Shown here one piece after another: positions 4,672-24,471 of a stretch of 64,000 nucleotides of DNA. The position numbers and the translations under genes are program-made. The stretch is taken from the IMG/VR virus record IMGVR_UViG_3300045921_000267, positions 1 to 64,000 of that record, one strand, 5' to 3'. Under the pieces are notes generated by a model. That model saw only the letters and a list, made by a program, of their open reading frames with translations, was not told the origin of the DNA and ran no database searches. The number at the start of each line of letters is the position of its first letter. The stretch's first letter is position 1. The stretch is from a virus.

Positions 4672-5292
4672 CTGATCCTCCTCCAGTCGTCTATCTACAC
4701 GATGAGTTGCCGTCGTCAACATCCGTTGACCGAGCAGCCGAAGTAGCACATCCCGAGCCGTCGAACGCACGCGCTCGACCTCTCCTGCGCTCACGCGCTC
4801 GCCACGGGCTCGCGCGGCGCCGATCTTCGCACCGTCAACGAACGCCGCGACGAGCAGCGCCATCTCATTCTTCGAGAGCCGTTCGTCAAGCGCGCGGATG
4901 AGTTCGCGCGCCGACGCCGACTCCTCCGGCGGGAGGGTCGGAGCCGCAGTCAAGTCCACGAGCGACAACGACTCTGCATCGTTGCTCACGGGAGCGTCGG
5001 CCGATCGCACGGTCATGCGACGCCCCCAGTGGTCGAGCGGGACACGACCTGCCGTGGTCGCATCCCGCTTCAAGTTGACGAGCTTGTTCCTCACCGCGAC
5101 GGTCACGAAAGCGCGCCCGGTGTTCCGAGTAGCGTCGTGTTTCGTGAGAGCGAGTGAGACCGCGAGACGCGCCTCTTGCGAGAGATCATCGCGATCGTAG
5201 CCGGGCACGTAGCCGATGCGACTCACCTCGCGTCGAACGATGTCCTCGAACGACGCGAGACGTGCGCTGGTTGCGGTCAGAGCGAGACGCAT
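3301..5292 (-). CDS. Sigma-70-like factor running in frame into an acidic/basic tail (663 residues)
   Basis: The first 207 residues resemble a small sigma-70 family protein. A region 2-like part (YDRDDLSQEARLAVSLALTK, then GRAFVTVAVRNKLVNLKRD) would bind core RNA polymerase and the -10 box, and a region 4-like helical part (SKNEMALLVAAFVDG to STARDVLLRLLG) would follow. The ATG at 5292 has a GGAAG site and overlaps the VWA gene by 16 bases. There is no stop codon after the sigma part. The frame continues through a promoter block and a ribosome binding site into the 456-residue acidic/basic protein. The product is therefore either a true fusion, or the sigma part carries the tail while a second shorter protein starts at 4671. 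A missed frameshift or lost stop codon is the alternative explanation. The sigma assignment is moderately firm; the fusion is seen directly in the sequence. Confidence 0.75.
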   Translation of the reverse strand: MRLALTATSARLASFEDIVRREVSRIGYVPGYDRDDLSQEARLAVSLALTKHDATRNTGRAFVTVAVRNKLVNLKRDATTAGRVPLDHWGRRMTVRSADAPVSNDAESLSLVDLTAAPTLPPEESASARELIRALDERLSKNEMALLVAAFVDGAKIGAARARGERVSAGEVERVRSTARDVLLRLLGQRMLTTATHRVDRRLEEDQMAKTTKNVKLPVVKTEELAECHASLPAGPGYDPNDVGCRDQCQDKFTCLRDLVNDRVKNSNGLTLDADTEVKAVLAGVLSFDDAIERMKKRSALMQSGGKIPASLSTTQPYEDDEEEGEDEIEEDEDEIEEDEDEIEEDEDEIEEGEDETDEDDEDDEEEGEDAEDEDDEDDEDDDEDAEDEDAEDAEDEGDEEEGEDEDDEDDEEENMIDDETAEENSTEENMSDEEKSKKTAKKPAKKAAKKAAKKAPKERGEKKSRTRIPAEKRVAIYSEGHHRFLPQPRTLDSEQMAAALGRIKLGQPFDLAIGMEIVRKKRDGDEVVVKIAKDGFVMDGVTYPSLSAAGQWASKRAVSGNDYFNVQSYSCTEIRGRGVPGGVYSQQGEGQPAVVGAHGKSAKPVEKPKKVAKKAAKKAAKKAPPPPPTKKATKKPAKKAAKKATKKPAKKAAKKKPAKKAA
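4692..4704 (-). promoter_or_regulatory. Phage promoter-like block P3 (CATCGTGTAGATA) inside the sigma frame
   Basis: This copy lies inside the continuous coding frame, 20 bases before the internal ATG at 4671. That start has a conventional ribosome binding site (GGAGGAGGAT). A TTGACG sits 16 bases upstream of the hexamer TAGATA, the only copy with a plausible -35 box. Confidence 0.55.
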
Positions 5293-8394: not shown

Positions 8395-9354
8395 TCACTT
8401 CTCCTCTTCGTAGCCGAAGATGCGACGAATCACGCTCCGCGCGACCGACGCATCCGTCGGCGACTCCAACTTGCGCAGCACCGCGAGATCCGCGGCGCGC
8501 AACACGTCGTTGTCGAGATCGTGAATCAGACGCGCCCACTGCACGCACCGTCGCGTGCTGAAATCGGCTTTGAACTTCTGATCCTTGCGCAACGCATCGG
8601 CGACACGAGCGATGCCCTCAGCGAAGTCGAAGTCGAGTTCGGGCACATTCACACGAATGCGCTCGCGCTCGACATCTTTGCTCGGGTAGTCACACGCGAT
8701 CACGACGCCGAAGCGATCGACGAACGCCGCGTTCATCGGATTCGTACCGGCGTGCCGAGCACGCGCGCTCGCACGAAAGCCGATCGTGTTGCCCGTCGCG
8801 AAGATGCGGAAGTCGGGATGCGCCGTGATCGTCTTCTTCAGTTCGGGAACGTGAAGCTCACGTCGGTCTTCTTCGAAAACGGGCTGAAGAACGAAGAGCA
8901 CACTCGGCAGCGCCGCATCGATCTCGTCCAGCAACACCCACCAGCCCTGCTCCATCGCTACGGCAAGATCACCGGGCGAGAAGATGAGCGAGAGCACCCC
9001 GTCCTGCGACGTCGGCTTCATCATGCCTCGCAAATTCGAAACGCGTGTCTCGCCGTCGCAATTGAACCGCACGAGAGGCATGTTCGTCATCGCCGCGAGC
9101 GCACCGATCACGCTCGTCTTGCCGCACCCCGTCGGACCGGTGAGAAGCACGTTCATGTTGCGTCGCACCGCGATCGCGATCTCCTCGCACTGCGCGGAGT
9201 CGAAGACGTACGGGCGTGGCTTCGGCACACCCGCTTGCTCATGCGCCGTGACACGCGCGCGAAACGTCGCGCCTCCGATGATGCGATCCTCGTAGCTGAT
9301 CGACTGCGCGGCATCTTGTAGACCGCGCGGCTTCCTCTTCATGCTCTTGTCCAT
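8395..9354 (-). CDS. MoxR/CobS-like AAA+ ATPase
   Basis: This 319-residue ATPase has Walker A GPTGCGKTS at about residues 73-81, Walker B WWVLLDEIDA, and a sensor-1 region IFATGNTIG, the pattern of the MoxR/CobS clade. Such ATPases form rings that work with a VWA-domain partner to remodel a target protein, and the partner is encoded two genes downstream. The start at 9354 (MDKSMKRKPRG) has an AAGGA site that forms part of a leader sequence also found upstream of the gene starting at 10398. Related pairs are known from large phages, where their targets are mostly undefined. Confidence 0.9.
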   Translation of the reverse strand: MDKSMKRKPRGLQDAAQSISYEDRIIGGATFRARVTAHEQAGVPKPRPYVFDSAQCEEIAIAVRRNMNVLLTGPTGCGKTSVIGALAAMTNMPLVRFNCDGETRVSNLRGMMKPTSQDGVLSLIFSPGDLAVAMEQGWWVLLDEIDAALPSVLFVLQPVFEEDRRELHVPELKKTITAHPDFRIFATGNTIGFRASARARHAGTNPMNAAFVDRFGVVIACDYPSKDVERERIRVNVPELDFDFAEGIARVADALRKDQKFKADFSTRRCVQWARLIHDLDNDVLRAADLAVLRKLESPTDASVARSVIRRIFGYEEEK

Positions 9355-11500: not shown

Positions 11501-12015
11501 CTCGCATGATTGACGATCAGACTCAGCGTCGCAGTCGCGACCGCGACCCACAACGTGAGGCTCTCGGGAGCATCGGCCGCTTCCGCGGCCATGATCTCCC
11601 GCGCCACGGCGGCAGCATCAAGGTGCGACGCTCCGCCGCCCACGGCGGCAAGCACCGCATCAACAAGACGCCAGGCGCAACCGACCCCGCACTCATCGAA
11701 GAGTTCGACGAGCACGTCCCGGACTTCACCACGCTCCAAAGATGCAGCAACCAATCGGTCCACCCACTGCTGAGGCCAACGTGGGTGGCAGGCGTCTCTG
11801 CCGGGTCCCGCGCACACCGGGGGCGGCGAGAGCGGGATGTCAAGCGTGTAGCCACGCTTGACGAGCGAGGCCGCGACGTCTGACGCCACGTGGTGCGCAA
11901 GCCACGCGTCTCGCGTACGCGAGAACTCCGCGCGGAGCTGTGCGCGGAGATCGGCGCGGTGGTCGCGACCATCTTCGGGGGCCTGCGGCAAAGTGAGAAC
12001 TTGTCCTCGCTTCAT
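11497..12015 (-). CDS. Hypothetical 172-residue protein
   Basis: This product begins MKRGQVLTLPQAPEDGRDH at 12015 with a good AAAGGAGAAG site. The middle contains several Cys (CAGPGRDACHPRW, DECGVGCAW). The C-terminal part is Ala-rich and ends in a hydrophobic stretch (LTLWVAVATATLSLIV) that could be a membrane segment or a buried helix. No family is recognised. Its stop codon lies inside a truncated copy of the 79-bp element that follows two neighbouring genes. Confidence 0.75.
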   Translation of the reverse strand: MKRGQVLTLPQAPEDGRDHRADLRAQLRAEFSRTRDAWLAHHVASDVAASLVKRGYTLDIPLSPPPVCAGPGRDACHPRWPQQWVDRLVAASLERGEVRDVLVELFDECGVGCAWRLVDAVLAAVGGGASHLDAAAVAREIMAAEAADAPESLTLWVAVATATLSLIVNHAS

Positions 12016-12040
12016 TTTCTTCTCCTTTCATCCAAAAGTC

Positions 12041-12119
12041 ACTGACACCCATCGTCAGGTCGCGCCTCACGCGACGACGGGCACCGCTCACGCGGTGCCC
12101 GTTTCGGGCTCGGGTCAGT
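12041..12119 (-). repeat. 79-bp gene-end element, copy 1 (two hairpins)
   Basis: This element is identical to 12420-12498 except at one base. Its ends are the inverted hexamers ACTGAC/GTCAGT. Inside are a perfect 9-bp stem GGGCACCGC closing a GTGA loop (GNRA type) and a second 6-bp stem (GTCGCG-TGAGG-CGCGAC). It starts 18 bases after the stop of the 12137-12400 gene. There is no U-tract; it may be a processing or stabilising 3' structure. Confidence 0.9.
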
Positions 12120-12136
12120 TCCGGGTGCGGCGCATC

Positions 12137-12400
12137 TCAGGCTCTCTGCGCGCCTGCATTCAGTTCGGCGGCCAGAGCCTTGGCCTCCGCCGTCGCGCGC
12201 GCGAAAGCGCACCGATCCGTGAGCCCATCGAAGCACCGCTCCCACGTGCGGATGATCTTCACGACCCCGCGGGCACGCTGTGAGATCATCGCTGGCCGTG
12301 CACCACGCTCGACTTCGATCACTGCTACACGACCATAACGGCCCCAGCAGTTCGATGGCATCTTCGCACAAGCCGTCATGACGATGTACTCCGTTTCCAT
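12137..12400 (-). CDS. Hypothetical 87-residue protein
   Basis: The start METEYIVMTACAKMPSNCWG at 12400 has a GAAGGAGGCGAAG site. The N-terminal half looks like a compact beta structure (RYGRVAVIEVERG) and the C-terminal half is helical with many Ala, including CFDGLTDRCAFARATAEAKAL. No family is recognised. It is framed by the two full copies of the 79-bp element, which suggests that this small gene and its flanks form a cassette or that the element arose by local duplication. Confidence 0.75.
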   Translation of the reverse strand: METEYIVMTACAKMPSNCWGRYGRVAVIEVERGARPAMISQRARGVVKIIRTWERCFDGLTDRCAFARATAEAKALAAELNAGAQRA

Positions 12401-12419
12401 CTTCGCCTCCTTCAATACT

Positions 12420-12498
12420 ACTGACGCCCATCGTCAGGTCGCGCCTCACGCGACGACGGGCACCGCTCACGCGGTGCCCGTTTCGGGCTCGGGTCAGT
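12420..12498 (-). repeat. 79-bp gene-end element, copy 2
   Basis: This is the second near-identical copy, beginning on the stop codon (TAC TGA CCC) of the 12494-12757 gene and ending 20 bases before the next ATG. Same two hairpins as copy 1. Confidence 0.9.
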
Positions 12499-12757
12499 AA
12501 CGACCGCCCACGTCGCAGCATCCGCAGCACGGCGCATCTTCGCAGATGCCGCGCGGCACGCTCATGTAGCGGTAGCTGCGGCGGTTGTACTGCAACGAGA
12601 CGATCGAGATGCCGTTACCACGGAAGAGGACTTTCGAAACAACCTCTTCCTTCGTCTCGCCGCTCCGCTTCAGCACGATGATCTTGTCACCAGGATTCAC
12701 ATCTTGCGTGACCTTCGCCCCCCAAGTGTTGTTGCGAAGCTTGATGTAGGTCGCCAT
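12494..12757 (-). CDS. Hypothetical 87-residue protein with C-terminal Cys cluster
   Basis: This small protein (MATYIKLRNNTWGAKVTQDV onward) has a beta-rich body that could be an SH3-like or KOW-like fold (NPGDKIIVLKRSG, GISIVSLQYN) and ends in a dense cysteine cluster (CEDAPCCGCCDVGGRY), a likely metal-binding site. The start at 12757 has a GGAGGACCC site. It is the first gene after the origin-like gap, so its promoter should lie in that gap. The function is unknown. Confidence 0.8.
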   Translation of the reverse strand: MATYIKLRNNTWGAKVTQDVNPGDKIIVLKRSGETKEEVVSKVLFRGNGISIVSLQYNRRSYRYMSVPRGICEDAPCCGCCDVGGRY

Positions 12758-12859
12758 GGGTCCTCCGTCGTCCGGCCGAGCCGGCTAGGTAGGAGCGGCA
12801 CCGCGCCGCTCATGACCATCTAGTAGGTCCGGTCAGGGGGTCGGTTCGCAGGATTCGAG

Positions 12860-12893
12860 AAAAAAAGATGCGAACCCCAGTTTTCGTGGGGTT
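12860..12893 (-). terminator. Rho-independent terminator after primase
   Basis: Reading leftward, AACCCCA pairs with TGGGGTT across CGAAAAC, followed by CGCATC and seven T. This should end the helicase-primase transcript. The same stem followed by TTTTG on the other strand might also stop rightward transcription. Confidence 0.75.
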
Positions 12894-12932
12894 TTGCCAT
12901 CTCTTTTCTTCTCCCCCACCCCATCCCCACCC

Positions 12933-12941
12933 TGTGGATAA
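12933..12941 (+). other. Perfect DnaA box (TGTGGATAA)
   Basis: The 9-mer is the exact complement of the consensus DnaA box TTATCCACA. It lies 27 bases from the primase stop in the non-coding gap. Confidence 0.5.
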
Positions 12942-12967
12942 CCACCTGCACCTACATGTAGTACATG

Positions 12968-13999
12968 CTACAGGCGCGGGACCCACGTCACCGCGCGGGT
13001 GACGATGCTCGCGTTCTGCTCGCGAGTGAGTGAGCCCGCGTCATAGCCTGGTGGCGGAGCGCAGATCCTCACTTCCGCGTGCGCTGAAAGCTCACGCGCG
13101 ATCGCTTCAGCGCTCGCCGCTTCGTCCGCCCCGTGATCGAGATAGATGGTGAATCGCTGCGCACGCATTCTCTTCAGTCGTTCGAGCTTCACGGGTCCAG
13201 CGACTTTGCCGAGCAGCGCGACCGCGTGCACGCCAACTTTGATCGCGTCGATGGGCCCCTCGCAGATCACGACATGAGGCTCGACACTCGCGCGCTCGTA
13301 GTTGAAAAGCACCTCGTGTGCCTGCACATCGTCACTCGATCGGATCAACGGATTGATGCTCTTCACGTAACCAGTACGTGCACGCCACTCGCGCTCTTGC
13401 TCTTTCGTGAGACCCGATGGAGGGTCCCACGTCGCACGCGCTTGCCAGTAGACAAGCGTGCCATCCATCCGACACAGAAAGACGATGCGATCTTTCGTTC
13501 GACCGGAGCGCCCGAACGCGAGGCCGAACTCGCGCACCATCGGCTCATCGATGCCGCGGCGCGCGAGGTATTCCCACGCGCGAGCGTGAGGCGCGCACGG
13601 CACGGTGAGGATCTCGGCACCATCTGGCCATGGCGACTGCGGCAAGCGGCGCACCGCAGGCTTCGGCGGCTCCATCGGCATAAGCGCCGACGAGAGCGCA
13701 GCCGCGTTTGAATCGCCGCCGATGTAACGCGAGATGAACCACTGCACCGCGCCAAGCTCATCGAGCTTCAGCACGTCGCGCACGAGCGCGAACGTGTCGA
13801 ACCCTCGCTTGCACCCCCAGCAGATCCCCGCGCGCTTCTGCGCGTTGAACCGCAGGCGCGATGACGAACAGTGCGGACACGTGAAGAGCCACTCGTGCGA
13901 CATGGCGGAAAGGCTCTCCTTCCGGCCACCAACGGCGCGCGCAAATGGTGCGATCTGGAACGCCGCGACGGCGCGTTCAAGTCGATCATTCGTCGTCAT
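12968..13999 (-). CDS. Bacterial-type DNA primase (zinc finger + Toprim)
   Basis: This 343-residue primase makes RNA primers for replication. A CHC2-like zinc finger is visible at residues 41-63 (CPHC, then CWGC). The Toprim domain carries the conserved glutamate in VVICEGPIDA (about residue 240) and the acidic pair region FTIYLDHGADEA (about 285). It is shorter than cellular DnaG and lacks the C-terminal helicase-binding domain of that protein. The ATG at 13999 overlaps the helicase end by 14 bases, so the two are co-translated, as expected for partners at the fork. A terminator and an origin-like region follow. Confidence 0.9.
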   Translation of the reverse strand: MTTNDRLERAVAAFQIAPFARAVGGRKESLSAMSHEWLFTCPHCSSSRLRFNAQKRAGICWGCKRGFDTFALVRDVLKLDELGAVQWFISRYIGGDSNAAALSSALMPMEPPKPAVRRLPQSPWPDGAEILTVPCAPHARAWEYLARRGIDEPMVREFGLAFGRSGRTKDRIVFLCRMDGTLVYWQARATWDPPSGLTKEQEREWRARTGYVKSINPLIRSSDDVQAHEVLFNYERASVEPHVVICEGPIDAIKVGVHAVALLGKVAGPVKLERLKRMRAQRFTIYLDHGADEAASAEAIARELSAHAEVRICAPPPGYDAGSLTREQNASIVTRAVTWVPRL

Positions 14000-15365
14000 C
14001 ACCGTTGCCCTTCTTCCTCTTCCTCCGACCCTCTTCCTTGAACTCGATCTGCTCCGCCGTGACACCGAGCTTCATGCGCTCGATGTCGTTCGTGAGTCGC
14101 CAAAGAAAGCCCATCGGGTTGTCGCGATGCATCTCCGCATAGAAGCGTGAGATGCCCTTCTCACGTTCGGCGCGCGTCGAGTTCAGCGAGCCCACGAAGT
14201 CCACGATGCGGATCTTCGCGTACGCGTCAGCGATCTTCGCCGCGCGGATCACGTGCTCATGCTCATCCGCATCTTCCTTCGGACGCTGCGTCTGCGAGAC
14301 CGTATGCGTGACAAGCGACCAGTTCAGCGTGAGTCGCTTCAAATCCCGCGTCGCATCAAGTTGATGCTGCGTCTCGCTATCTACGCGCTTGTTGCGTGAG
14401 CGCATGAGATCCACGTAGTCACAGATCAACATCTTCGGCTTGAATCCGCGCGCCGCGAGCGTCTTCAGCTCGCTCTCGATGTCGAGAGCCGTGACGTCCC
14501 AATCTGTCATCGCGCGGATCACGAGCAAGCCGCGCAGCCTCCGGTATTCATCGATCATGTCGCGGTAGAGCGACGGCGTGATCGAGCCTTTGCGCACTTC
14601 CGTATAGAACTCGCCGGAGAAGCGGGTGTCGTAGCGCGCCTCCGTCTGCTCGCGCTTGCCTTCGAGCTGGATGTGCAGAACGGGCTCGCGGTGCATGCGC
14701 AAGCATCGGAATCCCTCGTTGATGAGCCACGTGCTCTTGCCCGCCTTCGCGTAGCCCTGCACGAGCCACACTTCGCCCTCGACGGCACCCCCACCACACG
14801 CATCATCAAGCGGTCCGATCCCCGTCGAATAGACGTGTTGAAAGCCCGTCGCGTTCTTGATGATGCGTTGCTTGTGGCGAGTCTCGAACTCCTCGAAGAA
14901 GAACGATCGGTTCTCGTCCTCGAACGTCACCTCGCGGATCCGATCGAGCGCGCGCTGCGTCACATCGTACGCCTCGATCGGCTTGCCCGCGTTGTACAGA
15001 TCCTGCGCCTGCTTGTGTGCCTGCGCGAAGACCGATCGCTTGCAAAAGTCGGCGAGCGCTTCGCGGATGTACGCGTGCTCCGTCACGTAGGTGATCGACG
15101 TGATGGCGTCGATCTCATTCGAGTAGCTCGTGACGTTCTCAGGCTCGACGAAACGCAGCGCATCGCGCAACGGCACGTCGGTCATGCGCACCATGTACTT
15201 CTGCCAATACGCGTTCATCGTCGTCCAGACCCAGCCAAGCGGACGAGTCGTGAAGTACGACGCATCGACGTGCTTGAACGCACGTACTGCGAAGCCTTCG
15301 TCTAACATCGCGAGACGTGCGATCGATCGCTGGAACGCGACGTCGAAAGGGAAAGCTGCCGACAC
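13986..15365 (-). CDS. DnaB-like replicative helicase
   Basis: This 459-residue RecA-fold helicase unwinds DNA ahead of the fork. The N-terminal helical domain (first 150 residues) resembles DnaB-N in layout. The motor has Walker A GYAKAGKST (about residue 203) and Walker B MLICDYVDLM, followed by an Arg/Gln-rich motif (LVTHTVSQTQRPKEDADEH). The C-terminus is very basic and then acidic (EEGRRKRKKGNGDDDE). The GTG at 15365 lies six bases after the promoter hexamer TATAGA and has no ribosome binding site, so the mRNA is predicted to be leaderless. It overlaps the primase start. Confidence 0.9.
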   Translation of the reverse strand: MSAAFPFDVAFQRSIARLAMLDEGFAVRAFKHVDASYFTTRPLGWVWTTMNAYWQKYMVRMTDVPLRDALRFVEPENVTSYSNEIDAITSITYVTEHAYIREALADFCKRSVFAQAHKQAQDLYNAGKPIEAYDVTQRALDRIREVTFEDENRSFFFEEFETRHKQRIIKNATGFQHVYSTGIGPLDDACGGGAVEGEVWLVQGYAKAGKSTWLINEGFRCLRMHREPVLHIQLEGKREQTEARYDTRFSGEFYTEVRKGSITPSLYRDMIDEYRRLRGLLVIRAMTDWDVTALDIESELKTLAARGFKPKMLICDYVDLMRSRNKRVDSETQHQLDATRDLKRLTLNWSLVTHTVSQTQRPKEDADEHEHVIRAAKIADAYAKIRIVDFVGSLNSTRAEREKGISRFYAEMHRDNPMGFLWRLTNDIERMKLGVTAEQIEFKEEGRRKRKKGNGDDDE

Positions 15366-15371
15366 GAGCGG

Positions 15372-15384
15372 TCTATACCCGATG
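15372..15384 (-). promoter_or_regulatory. Phage promoter-like block P4 (CATCGGGTATAGA)
   Basis: The same 13-mer as P1. Six bases separate the hexamer from the GTG start of the helicase, so transcription should begin at the start codon. The block lies in the 27-base gap before the helicase-primase operon. Confidence 0.6.
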
Positions 15385-15392
15385 GTACTTCT

Positions 15393-15983
15393 TCAGCGAG
15401 ACCGAGCACGCCTCACGTGCTCGGGAGCCTGCGCGATCTTGCCAAGGCGCAGCGCGATCACATCGAAGCCCTCACGCTCGTTCAGACGCTTCGCGCACGA
15501 AGCCGCACGCGGGCAAGCAGGACACCACTTCGAGAACGGATGATAGCCGCCAGAAAGGTTGATCTGCGCTTCACAGAGATCGGTGCGCCCATTCACGAGG
15601 TAGTCGCGCCGCACCGCCTCGTTGCCACTGTTGACGGAGATGAGTTCACGCTCGAACTGAGTGTCCATGAGCTTCTTCTGCGCGCTCTCCCACGACATGC
15701 GCTGGACCATCGTATGGTAGCGTGTGAGCAGCGCTTCGCTCGCCATCGACTGCAAGCTCGGGCGCGCACGAGACCCACGACCTACGCGCACGACACGGAA
15801 GCGGAGCCACATGAAGAGCTTCGGCTGCTCGACATGGTGCTCTCGACACCACCGGAGGAACGAGGATGCAGCGTTCCACGCGCCGCGTGACCGCGTGTAG
15901 CCGCCGAGACCTCCTGCAAGGCGATCAAACTCATCGAGTACTTCTTGCACCGTGGTCTCCTTCTCGTTCATCTCCGCGTGCAT
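15393..15983 (-). CDS. Hypothetical protein with Cys motif between two helicase genes
   Basis: This 196-residue protein (MHAEMNEKETTVQEVLDEFD onward) starts at 15983 after GAGGAGGAAGC. The first half is helical and basic (SSFLRWCREHHVEQPKLFMWL). Near the end stands KWCPACPRAASCAKR, a C-x2-C-x5-C pattern that could hold zinc or an iron-sulfur cluster. The family is not recognised. It lies 9 bases after the SF2 helicase stop and just upstream of promoter block P4, so it belongs to the helicase P5 operon. A replication or recombination accessory role is inferred from position. Confidence 0.8.
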   Translation of the reverse strand: MHAEMNEKETTVQEVLDEFDRLAGGLGGYTRSRGAWNAASSFLRWCREHHVEQPKLFMWLRFRVVRVGRGSRARPSLQSMASEALLTRYHTMVQRMSWESAQKKLMDTQFERELISVNSGNEAVRRDYLVNGRTDLCEAQINLSGGYHPFSKWCPACPRAASCAKRLNEREGFDVIALRLGKIAQAPEHVRRARSR

Positions 15984-15992
15984 GCTTCCTCC

Positions 15993-17390
15993 TCAGAGAC
16001 TGACAACCTGCGTGCCGATGCGTGTCTCGGCGAAGATCCGACGCCCCGCGGCGTGACGCTTCAGCGTCTCGGTGCCGTGGTTGTCGTGGAAGTCATAGAT
16101 GAGCCCGACGCTCTTGCCTTCGCACGCAGTGAGCGGGCGGAAGTACGACTGCATCATCTGCACGCTGGCGTCGCCGCCCGCGGCGTAGATGAGCGCGCTC
16201 GCCCGCGGAAGATCGACGCCTTCACCGATCACGCTCGTGCCGATTAGCACGTAGCCCTCGCCATCTGCGAAGCGCTTCACGGCTGCACTTGTGAGAGCAC
16301 CTTCGCCTCCCTTCACGACGACGCTCTCAGGGATCATCTGCCCGAGCAAGTCGGCGTGCGCGCGACGCTTCACGAGCACGATCGTCGGGATTCCGTTCTG
16401 ATTTCCGATCGCGTGCGCGATCTGCGCAACGCGTGCGTTGCGACCCTCGTGCTTCACGATGCCGTCCTCGTAGGCTTCATCCCACGAGGTACCAGGCATC
16501 AACCGCGCGCCTGGTACTGGAGCGAACACGATGCGCGGAGGTGCGAGGTAGCCTCCGCTAACGAGTTCTTTGATCTCGATCTTGCGCAGCACCTGCGAGC
16601 ACACTGCGGCCATCGCGAGATCGTCTCCCGCAGTGCGAAAGTGCGTACCCGTGAACATGAGCCGGTAGTACGCCTCGGACGCAAGTTCGGAGATGCGATG
16701 ATATGTCTCTGCCGCAGCGTGATGGAACTCGTCGATCACAAGCACGAGGCGCGTCTTCCACCACGCATCAGGTTGCTTCGCCGCACTCGATGCCGTCGCG
16801 ACGACAATCGGCTTCGTGATGTCCTTCTCGCTCGGCTTCGCGTCACCATCAAGCCTCGCCACAAAGTCAGGGCTCCACATCTTGCAAAAGACCTCGTAGG
16901 TCTGCCTCACGATCTGCAAGCTAGGCGCGACATAGACAGTTGGCAGTGCGATCGTGTCGATGGCGCGCGCAGCCATGAGCGTTTTGCCGGAGCGAGGTGG
17001 AGCGTCGATCACACCTGTGCCGTACGTGATGATGCGCTTGTGCACTTCGTCTTGGTACGGACGCCACGCCGCACGCACGCTCCACCACGGGATGTTGTCT
17101 TCAGGACGGACGCGAATGTCGTGAAGCTCGCACGGCACGCCGTGATGCTTCGCGAGTGCGAGCACGTACGGCGTCAAGCCGGCAGGTACACGGTTGTCAG
17201 AACGCACGAGCGAGCCCCACGGCATCCCCTCGTGGATGAAGACTTCGCCGAAGCGAGTCTCACGAGCGCGACGTTCCGCTGCGTCGTTCGTCGGCGCGAG
17301 TGGGATCGCTAGCTGCCGGCGGATCGCCGCGATGAAGCTCAACGGCGCACCGTGGATCTCGCTAAACGCGTTGCCTCGCCAGACTTGCAC
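15993..17390 (-). CDS. Superfamily 2 DNA helicase (UvsW/DEAD-like)
   Basis: This 465-residue helicase has motif I VIDAPPRSGKTLMAA (about residue 130), motif II LVLVIDEFHHAA (about 218), motif III MFTGTHFRT, motif V LIGTSVIGEGVDLPRA (about 391) and a motif VI region QMMQSYFRP. Phage enzymes of this type (for example T4 UvsW) remodel branched DNA in recombination and fork restart. The frame is open further upstream to 17429, but that part is the promoter. The chosen GTG at 17390 lies seven bases after the hexamer TAGATC, with no ribosome binding site, so a leaderless mRNA is predicted. Sequence fit and promoter position support this start. Confidence 0.9.
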   Translation of the reverse strand: MQVWRGNAFSEIHGAPLSFIAAIRRQLAIPLAPTNDAAERRARETRFGEVFIHEGMPWGSLVRSDNRVPAGLTPYVLALAKHHGVPCELHDIRVRPEDNIPWWSVRAAWRPYQDEVHKRIITYGTGVIDAPPRSGKTLMAARAIDTIALPTVYVAPSLQIVRQTYEVFCKMWSPDFVARLDGDAKPSEKDITKPIVVATASSAAKQPDAWWKTRLVLVIDEFHHAAAETYHRISELASEAYYRLMFTGTHFRTAGDDLAMAAVCSQVLRKIEIKELVSGGYLAPPRIVFAPVPGARLMPGTSWDEAYEDGIVKHEGRNARVAQIAHAIGNQNGIPTIVLVKRRAHADLLGQMIPESVVVKGGEGALTSAAVKRFADGEGYVLIGTSVIGEGVDLPRASALIYAAGGDASVQMMQSYFRPLTACEGKSVGLIYDFHDNHGTETLKRHAAGRRIFAETRIGTQVVSL

Positions 17391-17397
17391 GATCGTC

Positions 17398-17410
17398 GAT
17401 CTACCCGATG
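17398..17410 (-). promoter_or_regulatory. Phage promoter-like block P5 (CATCGGGTAGATC)
   Basis: The hexamer TAGATC ends seven bases before the GTG start of the SF2 helicase. The block lies in the 35-base gap after the winged-helix gene. Confidence 0.6.
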
Positions 17411-17425
17411 CTCGTGACGAGCCGA

Positions 17426-18064
17426 TCAACTTCGCGCAGAATGCACCTTGCCCCGCACGTTCGGTTCGTCGTCGCCCTGCGCCTCGTCGTCGTTGGGTAT
17501 CGCATCCTCCCCGGACGTGCGGGGCTTCTTCATCATGGAGACCTCCGCCTCAGCCCACGCCTTCACGAAAGCGATCCGATCCTTCGTCGGGAGGTCGCGG
17601 TAGCTCGCGTCTGGATCCTTCAACATCTTGCGCGTGTGCTTCGTGAGTGCGCGCTTCGCGCGCTGAAGCCACTCGTCCGCGAAGAACGACTCCGTGGATC
17701 CTTCGCCGCGCTCCGGGTGAGTGCTCACGAGCCCGCCGAGCTTGTAGACTGGGATGGACGAGCGCCACGAGATCATCCCGTGGACTTCGATCCAACCATG
17801 GTCGCGTAGCTGCGCGATATGCCGTCGGATGCTGCGGTCGCTGTAGTCGAGGAAGTCGGCGATCTCCGCTTGCGAGAGTGAGCACACGAGATGTCCGCTT
17901 GCGTAGAGTTCGGCGAGCCGTCCTCCACGAAGGCCACGATCATCACGACATACGTGCCGACGCAACACGTCGTAGACCGCGAGCGCCTCCGCGCCGATGA
18001 TGCGAGGAACGCCCATGTCTACCGAAAGAAAGAAGTGGGGCACGTAGAACCCGAGGTCGGCCAT
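17426..18064 (-). CDS. Winged-helix DNA-binding protein (regulator or replication initiator type)
   Basis: The 212-residue protein starts at ATG 18064 (MADLGFYVPHFFLSVDMG). Residues 62-94 form a clear helix-turn-helix and wing: CSLSQAEIADFLDYSDRSIR, then RHIAQLRDHGWIEV. The rest is charged, and the C-terminal part (KHTRKMLKDPDASYRDLPTK) is helical. The overall layout recalls phage DnaD/RepA-like initiators as well as simple transcription regulators, and I cannot choose between them. The start is seven bases from the promoter hexamer TATAGA without a ribosome binding site, so it is predicted leaderless. Two perfect palindromes lie about 130 bases upstream and are its most obvious candidate target. 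Confidence 0.85.
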   Translation of the reverse strand: MADLGFYVPHFFLSVDMGVPRIIGAEALAVYDVLRRHVCRDDRGLRGGRLAELYASGHLVCSLSQAEIADFLDYSDRSIRRHIAQLRDHGWIEVHGMISWRSSIPVYKLGGLVSTHPERGEGSTESFFADEWLQRAKRALTKHTRKMLKDPDASYRDLPTKDRIAFVKAWAEAEVSMMKKPRTSGEDAIPNDDEAQGDDEPNVRGKVHSARS

Positions 18065-18071
18065 GTCGTGC

Positions 18072-18084
18072 TCTATACACGATG
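18072..18084 (-). promoter_or_regulatory. Phage promoter-like block P6 (CATCGTGTATAGA)
   Basis: The rightmost copy of the family. The hexamer TATAGA ends seven bases before the ATG of the winged-helix gene. Everything to the right (structural genes) lacks this motif in the gaps I inspected. Confidence 0.6.
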
Positions 18085-18148
18085 AAAAGTCGGTCGTGCT
18101 GGTCCGGTCGCAAGGGCGGGGCCCTTCGATCTCGGTTTCCTTTCTTTG

Positions 18149-18187
18149 GGAAGAGAAGATCCGAACGTAGTGAGGATCTTCTCTTCT
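18149..18187 (-). terminator. Long hairpin between lysis cassette and regulator gene
   Basis: AAGAGAAGATCC (18151-18162) pairs perfectly with 18174-18185, extended by one more pair and a wobble, around an 11-base loop. The tail in the leftward direction (CCCAAAGAAAGG) is not T-rich, so terminator function is likely but not classical. It would isolate the late genes from the winged-helix transcript. Confidence 0.55.
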
Positions 18188-18194
18188 TTCCGTA

Positions 18195-18231
18195 GGACAA
18201 ATTTGTCCGGGGGGTGCGGACAAATTTGTCC
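18195..18231. promoter_or_regulatory. Twin perfect palindromes GGACAAATTTGTCC (candidate operators)
   Basis: Two identical 14-bp perfect palindromes occupy 18195-18208 and 18218-18231. Their centres are 23 bp apart, about two helical turns, which would place both on one face of the DNA. They lie upstream of the winged-helix gene and just after the late lysis genes. The AT-rich core stands out in this GC-rich sequence. This is a typical operator arrangement for a dimeric protein, or iteron-like sites for an initiator. Confidence 0.75.
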
Positions 18232-18249
18232 GGGGGTCAGGATGCACGC

Positions 18250-18605
18250 TCAATTTGCGAACGCGACTGCGAGAGCCACGGCTGCCCCGGTCGCCACGAG
18301 CGCGCCGACCGCGAACCACAACGGCGGGCTTTCGTACCATTCGCGCGTTGCGCTCCTCCGGCTGCGCTCGATCTCCGCGACGAGTTCGGAGATGCGGTCG
18401 CGCAAGAGCCCCTCGCGCAGTGTGAGTCTTCGTGCGCCATCAATTGCCCGGTGAACGGCGCACGGTCTCCCTGCCGGAGCAGGATGGGCTCAGGCAGTTG
18501 CACTGACGGAATTGCGTCTTGCGCGTAAGCGGCCCTAGCAGGCGCTAGGACGGCCGCGAGCACGAGGAGCATGGGGGTAGCCACTGCTTCACGGAACGCC
18601 TCCAC
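18250..18605 (-). pseudogene. Exported spanin-like protein interrupted by a -1 frameshift
   Basis: Translation from GTG 18605 (GGAGAGG site) gives a signal peptide (PMLLVLAAVLAPARAAYA, cleavage before Q) and then PEPILLRQGDRAPFTGQL, a motif I know from exported phage lysis-cassette proteins. After about residue 60 this frame turns into an unlikely Ser/Arg-rich sequence ending at 18237. The -1 frame, entered near 18426, continues sensibly with a helical stretch (LTLREGLLRDRISELVAEIE) and a C-terminal membrane segment (PPLWFAVGALVATGAAVALA), ending at 18250. The combined product would be about 118 residues. Either programmed frameshifting, a real inactivating mutation or a sequencing error explains this. 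A lysis (spanin-like) role is suggested by its i-spanin-like neighbour. Confidence 0.65.
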
Positions 18606-18642
18606 GGGGCCTCTCCGTGGCGGGAATCGGCCCTTCTGAACC

Positions 18643-19017
18643 CTAGCGCCGCCCCGCGTCTCTTAGCCGGCGGTTGAAGTCGCGGATGAACGCATCCGCG
18701 GCTTCGGGACCTCCCTCGCGCGCGGCTTCGTACTTCAGCCGTTGCGCTGCATCGAACGCCGCGATCTCCGCGGCGTGCTCGCGCTCAATCCGAGCGAGTT
18801 CTGCTCGTGCGTGTTGCGTTGCCGCGTCGAGACGATCCGCGATCGCGCGCTCTCCAGGACCAGCGTCGATGTCGGTCACGATTGGTAACGGACTCGGAGG
18901 CGTGCAGCCGCGCCCGATGAAGAACGCGATCACGACCGCGAGCACGAGCACCGCGACACCGCCGACGACGGCGAGCGCCACGGTGAAGCCTTCACGTGTT
19001 GGAGTCTTGTAACCCAT
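18643..19017 (-). CDS. i-spanin-like (Rz-like) membrane protein
   Basis: This 124-residue protein has a single N-terminal membrane segment (VALAVVGGVAVLVLAVVIAFFIG, about residues 13-35) followed by a periplasmic helical coil (ATQHARAELARIEREHAAEI, FDAAQRLKYEAA) and the end FIRDFNRRLRDAGRR. This is the layout of inner-membrane spanins, which link to an outer-membrane partner and fuse the membranes at lysis. It sits between the membrane zincin candidate and the exported frameshifted protein. The ATG at 19017 has only a distant GGAG, so an upstream TTG or GTG start is possible. Classification is by layout, not by a clear family match. Confidence 0.65.
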   Translation of the reverse strand: MGYKTPTREGFTVALAVVGGVAVLVLAVVIAFFIGRGCTPPSPLPIVTDIDAGPGERAIADRLDAATQHARAELARIEREHAAEIAAFDAAQRLKYEAAREGGPEAADAFIRDFNRRLRDAGRR

Positions 19018-19137
19018 CACGTCACCAGTTCTCCGCAACACACGAGGTGTCCGCGCTCGCCATCAATGGCGCGCCGCGGTGCCGTCGTAGGCGGCCTCTT
19101 CAAGGTGGTTGCCCCGGTACGGATTCTCGCCGCGAAG

Positions 19138-19548
19138 TCACGCGACGAGCATGCCTGCGCCGTAGATGGCCCACGGCAGCAGAATCCACACGAGCAGCGC
19201 TGCGATCCACGTCCACGCGAGCAGCACGAGCGCGAGCATGAACGCCGCGAGGCAGTTCGCCTCGAACTGCTCGACGTGGATTCGTTCGTGGAAGAGCGTG
19301 CGCGCGATCGACGCTTCAGAGTGAGCACCGTTCAACAAGATCCCGTGCCCGATGCACGTGCCTCCCCACTTCACGTACCACGTGCGCACGGGCCACGAGC
19401 CCGGTGCGAAGCGAGTCGTGAGCGAGCCATCGATCCATTCGAGATGCGAGCCCCACACGACGCGCACGAAGAGCACCACGAGCCAGCCGACGAGATCATT
19501 CGGCAACGTGGCGACGTAGAGGCAGTAGCGGGTCCAGGGCTTCAGCAC
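19138..19548 (-). CDS. Membrane protein with HExxH motif
   Basis: This 136-residue protein has two hydrophobic regions: one near the N-terminus (LVGWLVVLFVRVVW) and a long one at the C-terminus (AFMLALVLLAWTWIAALLVWILLPWAI). Between them stands HERIHVEQFE at residues 87-96, an HExxH motif with a following Glu as in small zincin metallopeptidases. It overlaps the start of the cassette's first gene product by 7 bases and lies in the lysis region, where no endolysin is visible. Whether it cleaves peptides is unknown; a purely structural role is possible. Confidence 0.7.
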   Translation of the reverse strand: MLKPWTRYCLYVATLPNDLVGWLVVLFVRVVWGSHLEWIDGSLTTRFAPGSWPVRTWYVKWGGTCIGHGILLNGAHSEASIARTLFHERIHVEQFEANCLAAFMLALVLLAWTWIAALLVWILLPWAIYGAGMLVA

Positions 19549-19994
19549 GATCCCTCCTCCAGGTCACCGTCTCGCGTTTCCACATTCGAGCGTCGCGTCG
19601 GCGTGTTGCTCGACCCTCCGAGACGATGCGCCCAATCGGCGAAGAATCCACCCATGCGGTCACCGAACGTGATGATGAACTTACGGATCGTCTTCACGGT
19701 GAGTTCGTACGCAACCATCGTGAGCGCGCCGAGCCCCGCGCCGGAGATCACGCGATTCGTGATCGTACTACTGACGCCATCGAAGAGCGGCACGTCCACG
19801 ACGATGGCGAACACCGCTGCGCACACGAAGATCGGATGGTACGCCTTCGTGACGTAGTAGACGCCTCGCCAGCCTTGATCGCCGCCCTTCGCTGCGATCA
19901 GTTTCTGCACCATCTCGCCGATCGCGCCCACGACGAGCATGATCGCGAGGTACGAGATGATGACGAGCGTGTTGTGGTCGAGCGCGAGCGACAT
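19542..19994 (-). CDS. Holin-like membrane protein
   Basis: This 150-residue protein has a first membrane segment at the N-terminus (TLVIISYLAIMLVVGAIGEM), a second in the middle (PIFVCAAVFAIVVDVPLF), possibly a third (ISGAGLGALTMVAYELTV), and a charged C-terminal tail (RRSNVETRDGDLEEGSC). Small size, two or three membrane segments and a hydrophilic tail fit holins, which open the inner membrane at lysis. Its ribosome binding site GGAGG is buried in a stable hairpin (19998-20044). It is the first gene of the lysis cassette after the tailspike gene. Holin identity is inferred from topology and context. Confidence 0.6.
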   Translation of the reverse strand: MSLALDHNTLVIISYLAIMLVVGAIGEMVQKLIAAKGGDQGWRGVYYVTKAYHPIFVCAAVFAIVVDVPLFDGVSSTITNRVISGAGLGALTMVAYELTVKTIRKFIITFGDRMGGFFADWAHRLGGSSNTPTRRSNVETRDGDLEEGSC

Positions 19995-19997
19995 GAC

Positions 19998-20044
19998 GAG
20001 ACCTCCGAGATACCTGCGATCGTAGCAGGCACTTCGGAGGTCTC
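19998..20044 (-). promoter_or_regulatory. Hairpin that hides the ribosome binding site of the holin-like gene
   Basis: An 11-bp perfect stem (19998-20008 with 20034-20044) carries an inner 5-bp stem (CCTGC/GCAGG). The stem arm nearest the gene contains GGAGG, the ribosome binding site of the ATG at 19994. Folding would block translation initiation or act as a stop for the upstream transcript; no T-tract follows. Confidence 0.65.
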
Positions 20045-20058
20045 CGAAAGCGCGATGA

Positions 20059-22731
20059 TCAGGTGTAGGCGTTCACAAAGTTCAGGTTTTGGCTCAATCC
20101 GTCGAGATCATCGTCCGGCTTGTAGCCACGAATCGCCGTCGCACCAGTCTTGCGAATGTCCGCGTTGCTCCGGTTCCCGGAGCAGACACCGCCGCCCATG
20201 TTGCTGAAGAAGATGAAGTCGAACCCAGCGCCAGAGTTGTGCAGGAACGAGTTGTTCGACACGACCCATCTGAGACCTGCGTTGACGAGCGTCATGCCGA
20301 GGTTGTTGTTGCTCGGGCCGCCGCGCATCTGGTTACCGTTGATGATCGGTCCTTGGTTCGGAGCAGAGCCGAGGAAGTGGATCGCGTAGTTGCCGTTCCC
20401 CTCGAACGAGTTCGACTCGATCATCATCCGCTCGCACACGGAGCCGCTCGGGACGTAGATGCACGCGCTCGTCGTCTGCGCGTAGTTCCATCGCGCGAAG
20501 TGGTTGCGCGTGATCCTCACGTCATCGCAGTTGTTGATCCACACCGCAGCATCAGTCGTCGAGCGGCCAGAGATGTTGGTGCCGTCGAACTCGTCACCAC
20601 GCATCGTACAGCCGTCGATCGTGACGTCGTTCACGTTCACGAGGCGCACGCCGCGCGTGCGCGAGCCGCCGACCCACTTGTGGATGAGGCAGTCGCTGAT
20701 GCGCACGTGCGCACCCCAGCCGCCTGACGTCGCACTGACCTGGATCGCGGTGAAGGTTTCGGATCCTCCACCGTGCGCCGAGAAGACGTTCTCGCAGTCG
20801 CGCACGAACGCACCTGAGATGTTGTGCAACCGTACGCCGCCCGCATCGACCGACTGCGATCCCCATCGACAGTTCTCGATCACGTGGCTCTGCGTGCCGG
20901 TCGTCGTGCTCTCGATGTTGATGGCCCAGCCGGTGCCCGACGTGCCGCCTTGCCCGCCGTTCACCGGGTGTGTGCCGTTGTTGACGCCGCTGAAGAACTG
21001 GCAGTCGCGCACGCGCCAGCCGAACGCTTCCCCCGAGAGGTGCGTGCGTGCGTCGATCGCGTTTTCGTTGATGCCGTAGCTGAACTGGCAGCCTTCGATC
21101 GTGATGTACTGCGAGCTTCGCCCGTCGATCAACGAAACCGACAAGTTGTAGGGGCTACCCTCGCGTCCGACGAACGTGCAGTCACGGATCGTGAAGCCAA
21201 CCGCGACGTTTCGCGTCGTCGGCGTACCATCTTGCGTGAGCCTCACGTGCGCGGCTTCGACGCGGCAGTTCTCCAATACGCCGCCCGTGTAGCGAGGCGC
21301 AGCGATGCCGCCGAGATCGCCCACGTCGTAGAACTGCAAGCGTCCGCGGATGACACAGTTGCGCACGACGCTGCGGCGCGCGAAGCCCGTCGAGAGCACG
21401 TAGCCGGCATCGAGAGCTGGTGAGGCAGGCGCCGTGCTCATGCGCAGGTCGCAGTCGTGCGCTTCGATGAAGCCGGTCGCTGCGAACATGCCACGCCCAT
21501 TCGCCGTCGTGCCGGTCCAGGCGACATCGAGCCCACGAAGCACGAGGTTGCCCCCGCCGGAGCCCGCCACGCTCAGTCCGTACTCGTTCGCGTTGAGGCC
21601 CGCGCCGTTGATCGTGATGCGCGGCCGACCGAAGACGCCGTTGTTCGCCGTCGTCAGCGTCTGTCCGCTGCGAATCGTGATCGTGCACGGCTGTAGGCCC
21701 GACTGCACGTTCTTCATCGACGTGATCGTGTAGCCGTTGCCGGAGAGCCCGCCGTGCACGACGATCTCGATCCGCTCAGGCTTCGTCGTCATCGCTGCGA
21801 TGTGATCGAGTGCCGCTTCGAGTCCGCTTGTTCCGTTGAAGTCGCCGAACGTCGTGACGCCATCTCCGACGGTGTACGTCACGACGTCGATCGAGCGCAG
21901 CGTCTTCGTCTGCTCGGATGGGAGCGATCCCATCGGATCGAATGGCTTGTAGATGCGTGAGAACCAGTCGAACACGCCCGAGTCATTCGGGCCCTTCAGG
22001 TCTTGGATCTGGCGCATGAGCGCGCGTATCGCGCTGCGCAGTCCGAAGCGCCCCACGTTCGAGGCACTGCGCGACGCCGAACGGTCGAAGTCTTCGACGC
22101 CGCCCGCGCTCGACTGCGTTGCACGCGAGTAGGGCGCCGAGCCCTCGAAGAGGAAACGGCGCAGGTCGGTGATGTTGCCTGCGGTCACCGTGCCGCCGGC
22201 CCATGTCACCGTTGCGAGCGGAATCCATTCGCCGCCGCTCGGCGCACCTGAGACAAATTGGATCTGCCATCCGCTCACGTGGCGCGTGTCCGTGATCGCG
22301 ACGTACTCGCTTGCGGTGCCGTTGTCCCAGAACGCACGGTTGTCGCTCACGCCGTCGGTGTACCTGAAGCGCATCTCGACGGTGTACGAGCCGTTCGGCT
22401 GCCCAGCGAAGTCGAGGATCTGTTGCGTTGGCCCTTCGTTCAGGAACGACGAATCGCGATCACCGATCAGTTGCCCGTGGTCGAGCCCTGCGATCGTCTG
22501 CTCGCCACCAATCGCCGCGCCGCGCGCTTGCCCAGGAGGCTGGAGACGCACTCGCACGCGAGTGGTAGCGGGCGATTCAGGCTCGACTGCAAAGCCGCGC
22601 ACGATGTAGCTCTCTTCGCCAGAGAGCAGCGTGCGCAGTGTCCGCCTGAACTCCCCGAGCGTCAGGAAGGACACGGCGGTGATGTCGGGAATGTCTACGC
22701 GCTCACTCGGCGCCCATCGTACGAGTCGCAT
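20059..22731 (-). CDS. Tailspike with right-handed beta-helix
   Basis: This 890-residue protein probably binds or cuts host surface sugar. Residues 1-320 hold an N-terminal virion-attachment part. From about residue 330 the sequence is built of short beta-helix rungs, with many repeats of the I-x-x-C/N-x-F/I type (VIENCRWGSQ, VRDCQFFSGV, IDGCTMRGDE, ITRNHFARWN), as in pectate-lyase-like tailspikes. The start at 22731 has a GAGGAGAACAAG site. It ends the tail operon, and the hairpin before the holin-like gene follows. Specific enzyme residues cannot be assigned by eye. Confidence 0.85.
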   Translation of the reverse strand: MRLVRWAPSERVDIPDITAVSFLTLGEFRRTLRTLLSGEESYIVRGFAVEPESPATTRVRVRLQPPGQARGAAIGGEQTIAGLDHGQLIGDRDSSFLNEGPTQQILDFAGQPNGSYTVEMRFRYTDGVSDNRAFWDNGTASEYVAITDTRHVSGWQIQFVSGAPSGGEWIPLATVTWAGGTVTAGNITDLRRFLFEGSAPYSRATQSSAGGVEDFDRSASRSASNVGRFGLRSAIRALMRQIQDLKGPNDSGVFDWFSRIYKPFDPMGSLPSEQTKTLRSIDVVTYTVGDGVTTFGDFNGTSGLEAALDHIAAMTTKPERIEIVVHGGLSGNGYTITSMKNVQSGLQPCTITIRSGQTLTTANNGVFGRPRITINGAGLNANEYGLSVAGSGGGNLVLRGLDVAWTGTTANGRGMFAATGFIEAHDCDLRMSTAPASPALDAGYVLSTGFARRSVVRNCVIRGRLQFYDVGDLGGIAAPRYTGGVLENCRVEAAHVRLTQDGTPTTRNVAVGFTIRDCTFVGREGSPYNLSVSLIDGRSSQYITIEGCQFSYGINENAIDARTHLSGEAFGWRVRDCQFFSGVNNGTHPVNGGQGGTSGTGWAINIESTTTGTQSHVIENCRWGSQSVDAGGVRLHNISGAFVRDCENVFSAHGGGSETFTAIQVSATSGGWGAHVRISDCLIHKWVGGSRTRGVRLVNVNDVTIDGCTMRGDEFDGTNISGRSTTDAAVWINNCDDVRITRNHFARWNYAQTTSACIYVPSGSVCERMMIESNSFEGNGNYAIHFLGSAPNQGPIINGNQMRGGPSNNNLGMTLVNAGLRWVVSNNSFLHNSGAGFDFIFFSNMGGGVCSGNRSNADIRKTGATAIRGYKPDDDLDGLSQNLNFVNAYT

Positions 22732-22741
22732 CTTGTTCTCC

Positions 22742-23980
22742 TCACACGAGCGTCGTGGTCACCACGACGCGCACGCCTGCGGCGCGCACTTGATCAAGAA
22801 GACACCGAACGATGGCGCTCGGGTCAGAGAAGTAGGGGAAGTAGTCGCCATCGGCAGGATAGCGATCCGTCTCGTCGGTTGCGAGGTAGTGAGCCGTGAA
22901 CTCGCCTGCATCGACGATCACGTCCTCGCCTCCCACGTAGACGCGTTGCACAGTGCCAGTACCTGCGGTGTACGCGTTGAGGATGGGCGTTGCGGGATCG
23001 ACGACGAGCTGCCCCGTGTCGTTGACGTAGAGCACGGTCACGATCTCGTTCGTCAGTCCATCGACTAGCTGCACGCTGTACGGACCAAGCAGCGGAAACG
23101 ACCCGCTCGTGACGGGGCTGATCGTCGGATCGCCGGGCAACACGTTCTGCGCGAGCAACTCCGCCGGAGCCGTGGCGAGAAGATCGAGTACGGGGCCAAC
23201 GCGCGTGCCAGCGTAGATGTTCGGCGCGATCACCGGGTCACGCTCGCCACGCAGCACGACGTCGTTCCGGTAGTAGATGCCGCGCACCTCGTTCGGCTGG
23301 AACGCAAGCGTGACAGTTGTACCTCCACCGTCGATCTGCGCAGGCCACGCGCCGTTCAGGAAGAAACGCCCACGCAGACTGCTCGCCGTTGGGATACGCA
23401 CTTCTACGAAGACTACGTTCGGATGCGTGATTGGCTCCTCGTAGACGATGTAGTCATTGACGCCGGGGAAGACATCGAGCACGCGCTTGAAAGCGTCGAT
23501 CGGTTGGTTCGGCAAGTACGCCATCACTTGGATGAGCGAGCGCCACGTCTCCTCGTCGAGGCCGGCGCACTTGTGCAGACCGAGGTTGCGTCCGATCACG
23601 TCGAGGTCTTCACCGCGAGCCGTGCCGACGAAGAGACCACGGCGTACGAGATCGACTGCCGTGCGGTTGCGGGTGAGGTCGTAGACCAGCGTACCGGGAG
23701 GATGGAGCGCAGGTGTCGTCGTGCGGACGCCACGCGAAAGCGTCGTGAAGCTCGTGAGTGTGCGCCCGGTCGCGAGGATGATCTCGCCGCCAACGAGCAC
23801 CAACGCGACGTTGGTGCCATCGACTTCTTCGCCGAAGCGGATCGTGCTCGCGACGTTCATGACGCCCGTTTCGTCGATCGCGAGAGGCGTCGTGAGTTCG
23901 GTGATGGCTTGGCCGGCGAGACGGTTCGCCTCGCCGATCATGGCGTCGAGCAACGCTTTCCAGAGTCCGCTCGGACGCAT
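22742..23980 (-). CDS. Putative baseplate/tail structural protein
   Basis: This 412-residue protein (MRPSGLWKALLDAMIGEANR onward) starts with a GGAGG site and a TGATG overlap. It has a long beta-rich body with several small repeats of hairpin type (NIYAGTRVGPVLDLLAT, GTVQRVYVGGEDVIVDAGEF). It lies after baseplate J, the repeat fibre and several small genes, and before the tailspike, which fits a baseplate wedge or fibre-adaptor protein. The region GEDLDVIGRNLGLHKCAGLDE resembles part of phage tail-fibre-connector proteins that follow gpJ. The exact role is not recognised. Confidence 0.75.
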   Translation of the reverse strand: MRPSGLWKALLDAMIGEANRLAGQAITELTTPLAIDETGVMNVASTIRFGEEVDGTNVALVLVGGEIILATGRTLTSFTTLSRGVRTTTPALHPPGTLVYDLTRNRTAVDLVRRGLFVGTARGEDLDVIGRNLGLHKCAGLDEETWRSLIQVMAYLPNQPIDAFKRVLDVFPGVNDYIVYEEPITHPNVVFVEVRIPTASSLRGRFFLNGAWPAQIDGGGTTVTLAFQPNEVRGIYYRNDVVLRGERDPVIAPNIYAGTRVGPVLDLLATAPAELLAQNVLPGDPTISPVTSGSFPLLGPYSVQLVDGLTNEIVTVLYVNDTGQLVVDPATPILNAYTAGTGTVQRVYVGGEDVIVDAGEFTAHYLATDETDRYPADGDYFPYFSDPSAIVRCLLDQVRAAGVRVVVTTTLV

Positions 23981-24471
23981 CACAAACCTCCAAGCAGCAT
24001 GCGGCGACCCGTCGCCCACACACGTGCAAAGCCAACGCGCACGCGATGAACTTTCAACTCCTCGGCGAACGGCTGAAAGTCGAGTGCATCTTCAAGAACG
24101 GCACTATTGACTGAGTTCGTCACGCGCACGTGGTAGATGCCCTGCGCGAGCGCAGGCGTGCCAACGAACGCACGCGTCGTCGTGAGGTCGTAGCGCGCAT
24201 CGAACATGTAGCAGGTACCCACGACGGTGTACGGACCGCCGCTCGGGCCGATGAGCACTTCGACGGTGAGCGGATCCTCGAACTCCGTGCCGATGATTTC
24301 GATCACGTCACCGCCGAGCACATCTACGAGTTGCCCACCGTTCGGTGAAGGGCCTTCGGGCGAGATCACGGCGTCGATCGTCGGCGCCGAGACGGCGGCA
24401 TCACCTACACCACCCCACGGGTTGCCGTCGATCCCGCCCCAATCTCCTACACCCCAACCGTAGATGGGCAT
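23980..24471 (-). CDS. Tail-associated protein with IPT/TIG-like Ig domain
   Basis: This 163-residue protein begins with a Gly/Trp-rich segment (MPIYGWGVGDWGGIDGNPWG), followed by an immunoglobulin-like fold that reads like IPT/TIG domains (ISPEGPSPNGGQLVDVLGGD, EIIGTEFEDPLTVEVLIG, YHVRVTNSVNSAVLE). Such domains decorate phage tails and capsids and can bind cell-surface sugars weakly. The start at 24471 follows a GAGGAGACGAG site. Its stop overlaps the next gene as TGATG. Assignment of the fold is moderate. Confidence 0.7.
   Translation of the reverse strand: MPIYGWGVGDWGGIDGNPWGGVGDAAVSAPTIDAVISPEGPSPNGGQLVDVLGGDVIEIIGTEFEDPLTVEVLIGPSGGPYTVVGTCYMFDARYDLTTTRAFVGTPALAQGIYHVRVTNSVNSAVLEDALDFQPFAEELKVHRVRVGFARVWATGRRMLLGGL

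Follow-up and report, generated by a model that had tools for sequence, protein, structure and literature searches.

The 185-bp gap at positions 18065-18249 of the 64,000-nucleotide stretch analysed here (the window), part of a phage record of 69,099 bases, is probably an iteron-type replication origin built like oriλ. The gap lies between a late spanin-like gene and the winged-helix gene that opens the replication module, and it contains two perfect palindromes, a 13-bp hairpin and a promoter-like block. Along the direction of transcription, which is the minus strand for all genes called in the window, the palindromes come first (18231-18218 and 18208-18195), followed by the hairpin (18186-18150) and a TATAGA element (18077-18072). 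We recognise the layout of an iteron origin in the joint presence of candidate binding sites, a predicted unwinding element, a putative initiator gene and a replicative helicase gene. A sequence-only reading of this region had offered autoregulation by the winged-helix protein, a lytic switch or an initiation site, and the last of these is the best supported. Autoregulation is possible, although 137-160 bp separate the sites from the start codon, and a lytic switch finds no support, with no matches to the integrase family PF00589 or the HTH_3 repressor family PF01381 in the record, which may be incomplete. To our knowledge, the origins of uncultured tailed phages have rarely been located, and a search of the open literature (iteron and winged-helix origins, initiator co-evolution, SPP1 proteins, intergenic iterons) did not turn up any paper dealing with these phages. 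The region most likely represents a site of a known kind, met here in a little-known group of phages.

The gene order around the gap bears out the proposed boundary of late and early genes: replication genes occupy the left side, and structural genes, including those for baseplate, major head and portal proteins, the right, upstream side. Downstream of the winged-helix gene (17426-18064, minus strand, 212 aa) follow, on the same strand, genes for an SF2 helicase (15993-17429, with a true start near 17390 by homology), a conserved four-cysteine protein of unassigned function (15393-15983), a DnaB-like replicative helicase (13986-15365, profile match) and a primase (12968-14065, profile match), and then a DNA polymerase. 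The four cysteines are invariant across the four loci aligned. This protein, encoded between the SF2 helicase and DnaB genes, is a candidate helicase loader; no DnaB helicase loader, including one of the λP type, was identified. A change in GC skew at 16.9 kb is weak and coincides with the module boundary. The last late gene, which directly precedes the control region (18250-18605, minus strand), is one that we take to be spanin-like from its layout rather than from a profile match; relative to L125 and L127, two related loci described below, it is shortened, lacking its middle part, and is out of frame, and a contig identical to the window carries the same sequence of this gene. Elsewhere in the window we observed a 70-bp exact direct repeat at 12050-12119 and about 12429-12498, which gives a double match of one locus end, and a gene pair (5277-7547 and 8395-9354) matching a cobaltochelatase CobT-like family and a 'porphyrin biosynthesis' ATPase-type family, the first of which contains a 60-bp tandem repeat array at 6527-6906. 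The major head protein (46257-47666) is closest to those of Bacillus SPO1-type myoviruses, at about 31-34% identity.

The two palindromes, which we propose to be iterons, are exact copies of GGACAAATTTGTCC at 18195-18208 and 18218-18231, the second of which extends with its flanks to a 16-bp palindrome (18217-18232). They stand 23 bp apart from start to start, as the sequence-only reading had described, with 9 bp between them. Even at three mismatches they are the sole matches in the window, and they are also the only exact copies in the 69,099-base record. The palindromes are real, and they are unusual as a tandem pair rather than as single words: single 14-mers of this kind do not exceed chance, at least two near matches appearing in 22 of 100 shuffles, whereas the tandem pair is the only one in the record and any such pair arose in 3 of 20 record shuffles (identical arms of 5 or more, gap 0-8, spacing 19-26). 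The gap region had no match among plasmids and one weak match among phages. In a collection holding one genome per species for 84,980 species, the paired palindrome occurs in a single stretch, on a Hydrogenophaga contig, and three other viral contigs (L030, L063 and L068) also carry it. A regulator with many host copies, to which the palindromes might otherwise have been attributed, would not be expected to leave this pattern, and the one paired occurrence in the genome collection, together with the different palindrome found in each relative, makes a widespread host regulator unlikely. In L030, L063, L068 and L123 (other phages and the Hydrogenophaga contig), the pair is spaced 33-40 bp and the neighbouring genes are unrelated. 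Read from translations rather than profile matches, these neighbours include an XRE-type gene in L030 and L063 and a HicA-like gene in L068. A shared host or XRE-type operator was considered and dropped because the relatives of the window carry other palindromes.

The hairpin lies inside the least stable DNA of the record. Its arms (18150-18162 and 18174-18186) pair at all 13 positions around an 11-nt loop, as had been claimed from the sequence, and the RNA fold has a z of -3.7. By nearest-neighbour energy over the 69,099-base record, the least stable 100-bp stretch, our proposed unwinding element, falls at 18128-18227 and the best 60-bp window at 18144-18203; at lengths of 40, 60 and 100 bp alike, the minimum for the record lies in the gap, and no windows elsewhere reach it. 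The segment, at best only 57% A+T, therefore has the low predicted stability expected of the unwinding element of a λ-like origin. A stable fold directly after the last late gene could alternatively be read as a transcription terminator of the late operon, with the palindromes as an unrelated site for a host factor. We consider this quite improbable, since no U-run follows the hairpin on the minus strand, unlike the hairpin in the gap at 12758-12967, and since a shared host factor does not predict a palindrome that differs in each relative or a pair that is very rare in genomes. A search for an RNA family in the region returned nothing credible. A single perfect DnaA box, TTATCCACA, is present at 12933-12941, in a 210-bp intergenic region with a terminator-like hairpin; a DnaA-dependent origin was rejected, the window containing one such box against 0.42 expected.

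The proposed initiator is the winged-helix protein, to which we assign this role from profile and structure matches. Its best PHROG is 'replication initiation O-like' (phrog_391, E 3.1e-5), a match that covers the DNA-binding part only, and several winged-helix Pfam models match the protein below their cut-offs, so that the profile matches are weak. The structure model is poor (mean pLDDT 57) and shows helices and a wing at residues 49-109; its best matches among solved structures are MarR and ArsR regulators, none below E 0.001, and 11 viral predicted structures match at E 0.001 or better, including one whose name is putative replicon initiation protein. Searching with this protein alone recovered nothing but a contig with 100% identity to the window across the compared stretch (L003, L126 and L145 are one such contig), and the phage collection gave no match. 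An upstream extension of the protein beyond 18064 was rejected because GC by codon position indicates noncoding DNA (GC3 0.56 versus 0.78).

The promoter-like block (18071-18085, minus strand; P6 of the sequence-only reading) was found as described, with its -10-like TATAGA at 18072-18077 only 7 nt from the winged-helix start codon, a distance that makes a leaderless mRNA likely for this gene. The element belongs to a motif, CATCGNGTA, that stands upstream of six minus-strand genes. The copies of CATCGNGTA(TA)GA are at 752, 3237, 4703, 15383, 17409 and 18083 on the minus strand, most of them a few nucleotides before a start codon, so that leaderless mRNAs are possible there too, and the relative G001 also has six copies, apparently at matching places. 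There are no sigma-70 consensus sites in 12000-24000, and the P6 block is not one. The presence of a conserved promoter-like block after the palindromes would also suit a pair of operators through which the winged-helix protein would control its own replication operon, by repression or activation, or would silence read-through from the late genes, with no origin involved. MarR and ArsR dimers bind palindromes and, as the best structural matches, are winged-helix proteins of this kind; in addition, the sites lie only upstream of the winged-helix gene. We nevertheless regard an operator pair as rather unlikely, for unlike the sites of such repressors the palindromes are set among replication genes and far from the promoter, at 72-169 bp from the start codon in the window and its relatives, which is mostly too far for simple blocking of the -10 element, and the low stability of the DNA would be left unexplained.

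Further evidence for an iteron origin comes from relatives of the phage. Searches with the SF2 helicase and its alignment identified four diverged relatives, L125 (helicase 78% identical), L127 (67%), L128 (49%) and L130 (50%). The winged-helix gene is present in L125 and L127, where it is 47% and 31% identical to the protein of the window; the records of L128 and L130, possibly fragments, did not yield it. In L125 (G001), the gap after the spanin-like stop codon contains two copies of TACGCA-N6-TGCGTA at 22-bp spacing, followed by a hairpin (14-nt arms, 11-nt loop) and by the winged-helix gene; this motif has two copies in the G001 record and none in four other records. The gap of L127 (G003) contains imperfect repeats of the type ACTCA-N4-TGAGT at 23-bp spacing and a third copy, preceded by a hairpin whose fold (z -1.4) is no better than that of many shuffles. 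At two mismatches or fewer, the L127 motif has three copies in its own record, all in the gap, and 0 to 2 in the others, as did controls (0 to 2). Both relatives thus have palindromes 22-23 bp apart and a hairpin, with palindrome sequences entirely different from those of the window, and in an alignment of the window with L125 the palindromes differ, whereas the promoter block, AACCGAGATCG and a portion of the hairpin loop (CGTTCG) are retained. Measured upstream from the start codon, the site centres are at 137 and 160 bp in the window, at 125 and 147 bp in L125 and at 72, 146 and 169 bp in L127. Joint change of protein and site would predict divergent winged-helix proteins, and the identities of 47% and 31% fit this prediction. 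Gene, sites and promoter are adjacent in the window, L125 and L127, an arrangement that would also suit an origin whose initiator, like plasmid Rep proteins, uses the same sites to regulate its own gene; such a dual role appears very improbable here given the distance of the sites to the promoter. The least expected aspect of the proposed origin is this apparent turnover of site sequences inside a conserved framework.

At a greater distance, alignment of the DnaB-like helicase yielded 18 loci, of which eight (L146, L147 and L149-L154) have the spanin-like gene. In L154, tandem TGCACAGTTTCTGTGCA sites stand 19 bp apart directly after the spanin-like stop codon and no winged-helix gene was found in the slot; in L148, imperfect palindromic repeats 22 bp apart lie downstream of a different winged-helix gene and before the SF2 helicase gene. 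Neither arrangement is what an operator of the winged-helix gene would lead one to expect. The L148 winged-helix gene matches the PHROGs 'DnaD-like helicase loader' and 'replication initiation protein', and L155 encodes a 'replication initiation protein' (1.6e-17) just before the SF2 helicase, which suggests that the slot is occupied by different initiator families in different members. A strict scan for tandem palindrome pairs (identical arms of 5, gap 0-8, spacing 18-27) over 282,453 bases of 14 loci found three, all in the slot, against an average of 0.7 in 20 shuffles. In a looser scan the slot site ranked first in G000, L147 and L154, second in L148 and third in G001; L150, L155, L156 and L158 had weak slot candidates only (ranks 5, 3, 3 and 5), and L149, L151, L152 and L153 had no slot site among the top five. 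When both copies had to be near-perfect ungapped palindromes, which excludes gapped forms such as the L125 sites, only 2 of 13 loci had their top match in the slot (p = 0.11). In 8 of the 13 loci the least stable 100 bp of the locus lay in the slot, and in 5 outside it. For this count slots were assigned after the loci had been inspected, those of L150, L156 and L158 being wide; it does not include L159-L162, whose DnaB matches are weak, or L157, for which no slot was defined. The p-value of 4e-9 for these 8 loci assumes uniform placement and is too small, because intergenic DNA is generally less stable. We advance only tentatively the broader idea that in a large phage group the place of the origin is fixed, while the initiator may be replaced or rewritten together with its palindromic iterons and the neighbouring hairpin and promoter kept.

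In the mechanism that we envisage for the proposed origin, the winged-helix protein, presumably as a dimer, would bind the two palindromes as iterons, a pairing suggested by their private co-occurrence and by the parallel divergence of protein and site. Binding of the initiator might then strain and open the adjacent low-stability segment that contains the hairpin, after which the phage DnaB-like helicase and the primase, encoded just downstream, could be loaded. This scheme follows λ, for which the cited passages describe O dimers that bind inverted-repeat iterons of about 19 bp and open a neighbouring 40-bp A+T-rich region (PMC5043065), a minimal fragment for unwinding made up of two iterons and the AT-rich region (PMC7466680), and assembly of neighbouring O dimers into an O-some (PMC3985674). 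Like oriλ and O, the region combines inverted-repeat sites beside an easily opened segment, an O-like profile match and a DnaB-family helicase in the module. However, oriλ has four iterons of about 19 bp inside the O gene, whereas here two perfect 14-bp sites lie in noncoding DNA upstream; moreover, helicase and primase are phage-encoded here, no λP-like loader was found and the low-stability segment contains a hairpin. Placement of the sites within the initiator gene characterises λ and SPP1 oriL but is not general among iteron origins. In the parts of the SPP1 source that bear on oriL and gp38, an initiator gene, repeats and an AT-rich unwinding element likewise lie beside a DnaB-family helicase gene, but the repeats are direct and those of oriL are within gene 38, unlike the palindromes upstream of the gene here (PMC6316719). 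Similarly, the RepA origin of the PLE satellite, as far as the cited text describes it, has an initiator and iterons in a noncoding region, but that initiator belongs to the RepA_N family, for which there is no match here (PMC7145576).

Finally, if initiators and sites do change together in a fixed slot, each lineage of these phages would have a private origin code, which could limit cross-initiation by co-infecting phages or hijacking by satellites. If the origin reading is right, it would also provide a testable rule for finding origins across a phage group, namely tandem palindromes spaced by about 22 bp, together with the least stable DNA, in the gap that follows the spanin-like gene, and the group would offer a natural series of initiators and matching sites in which to study changes in recognition.
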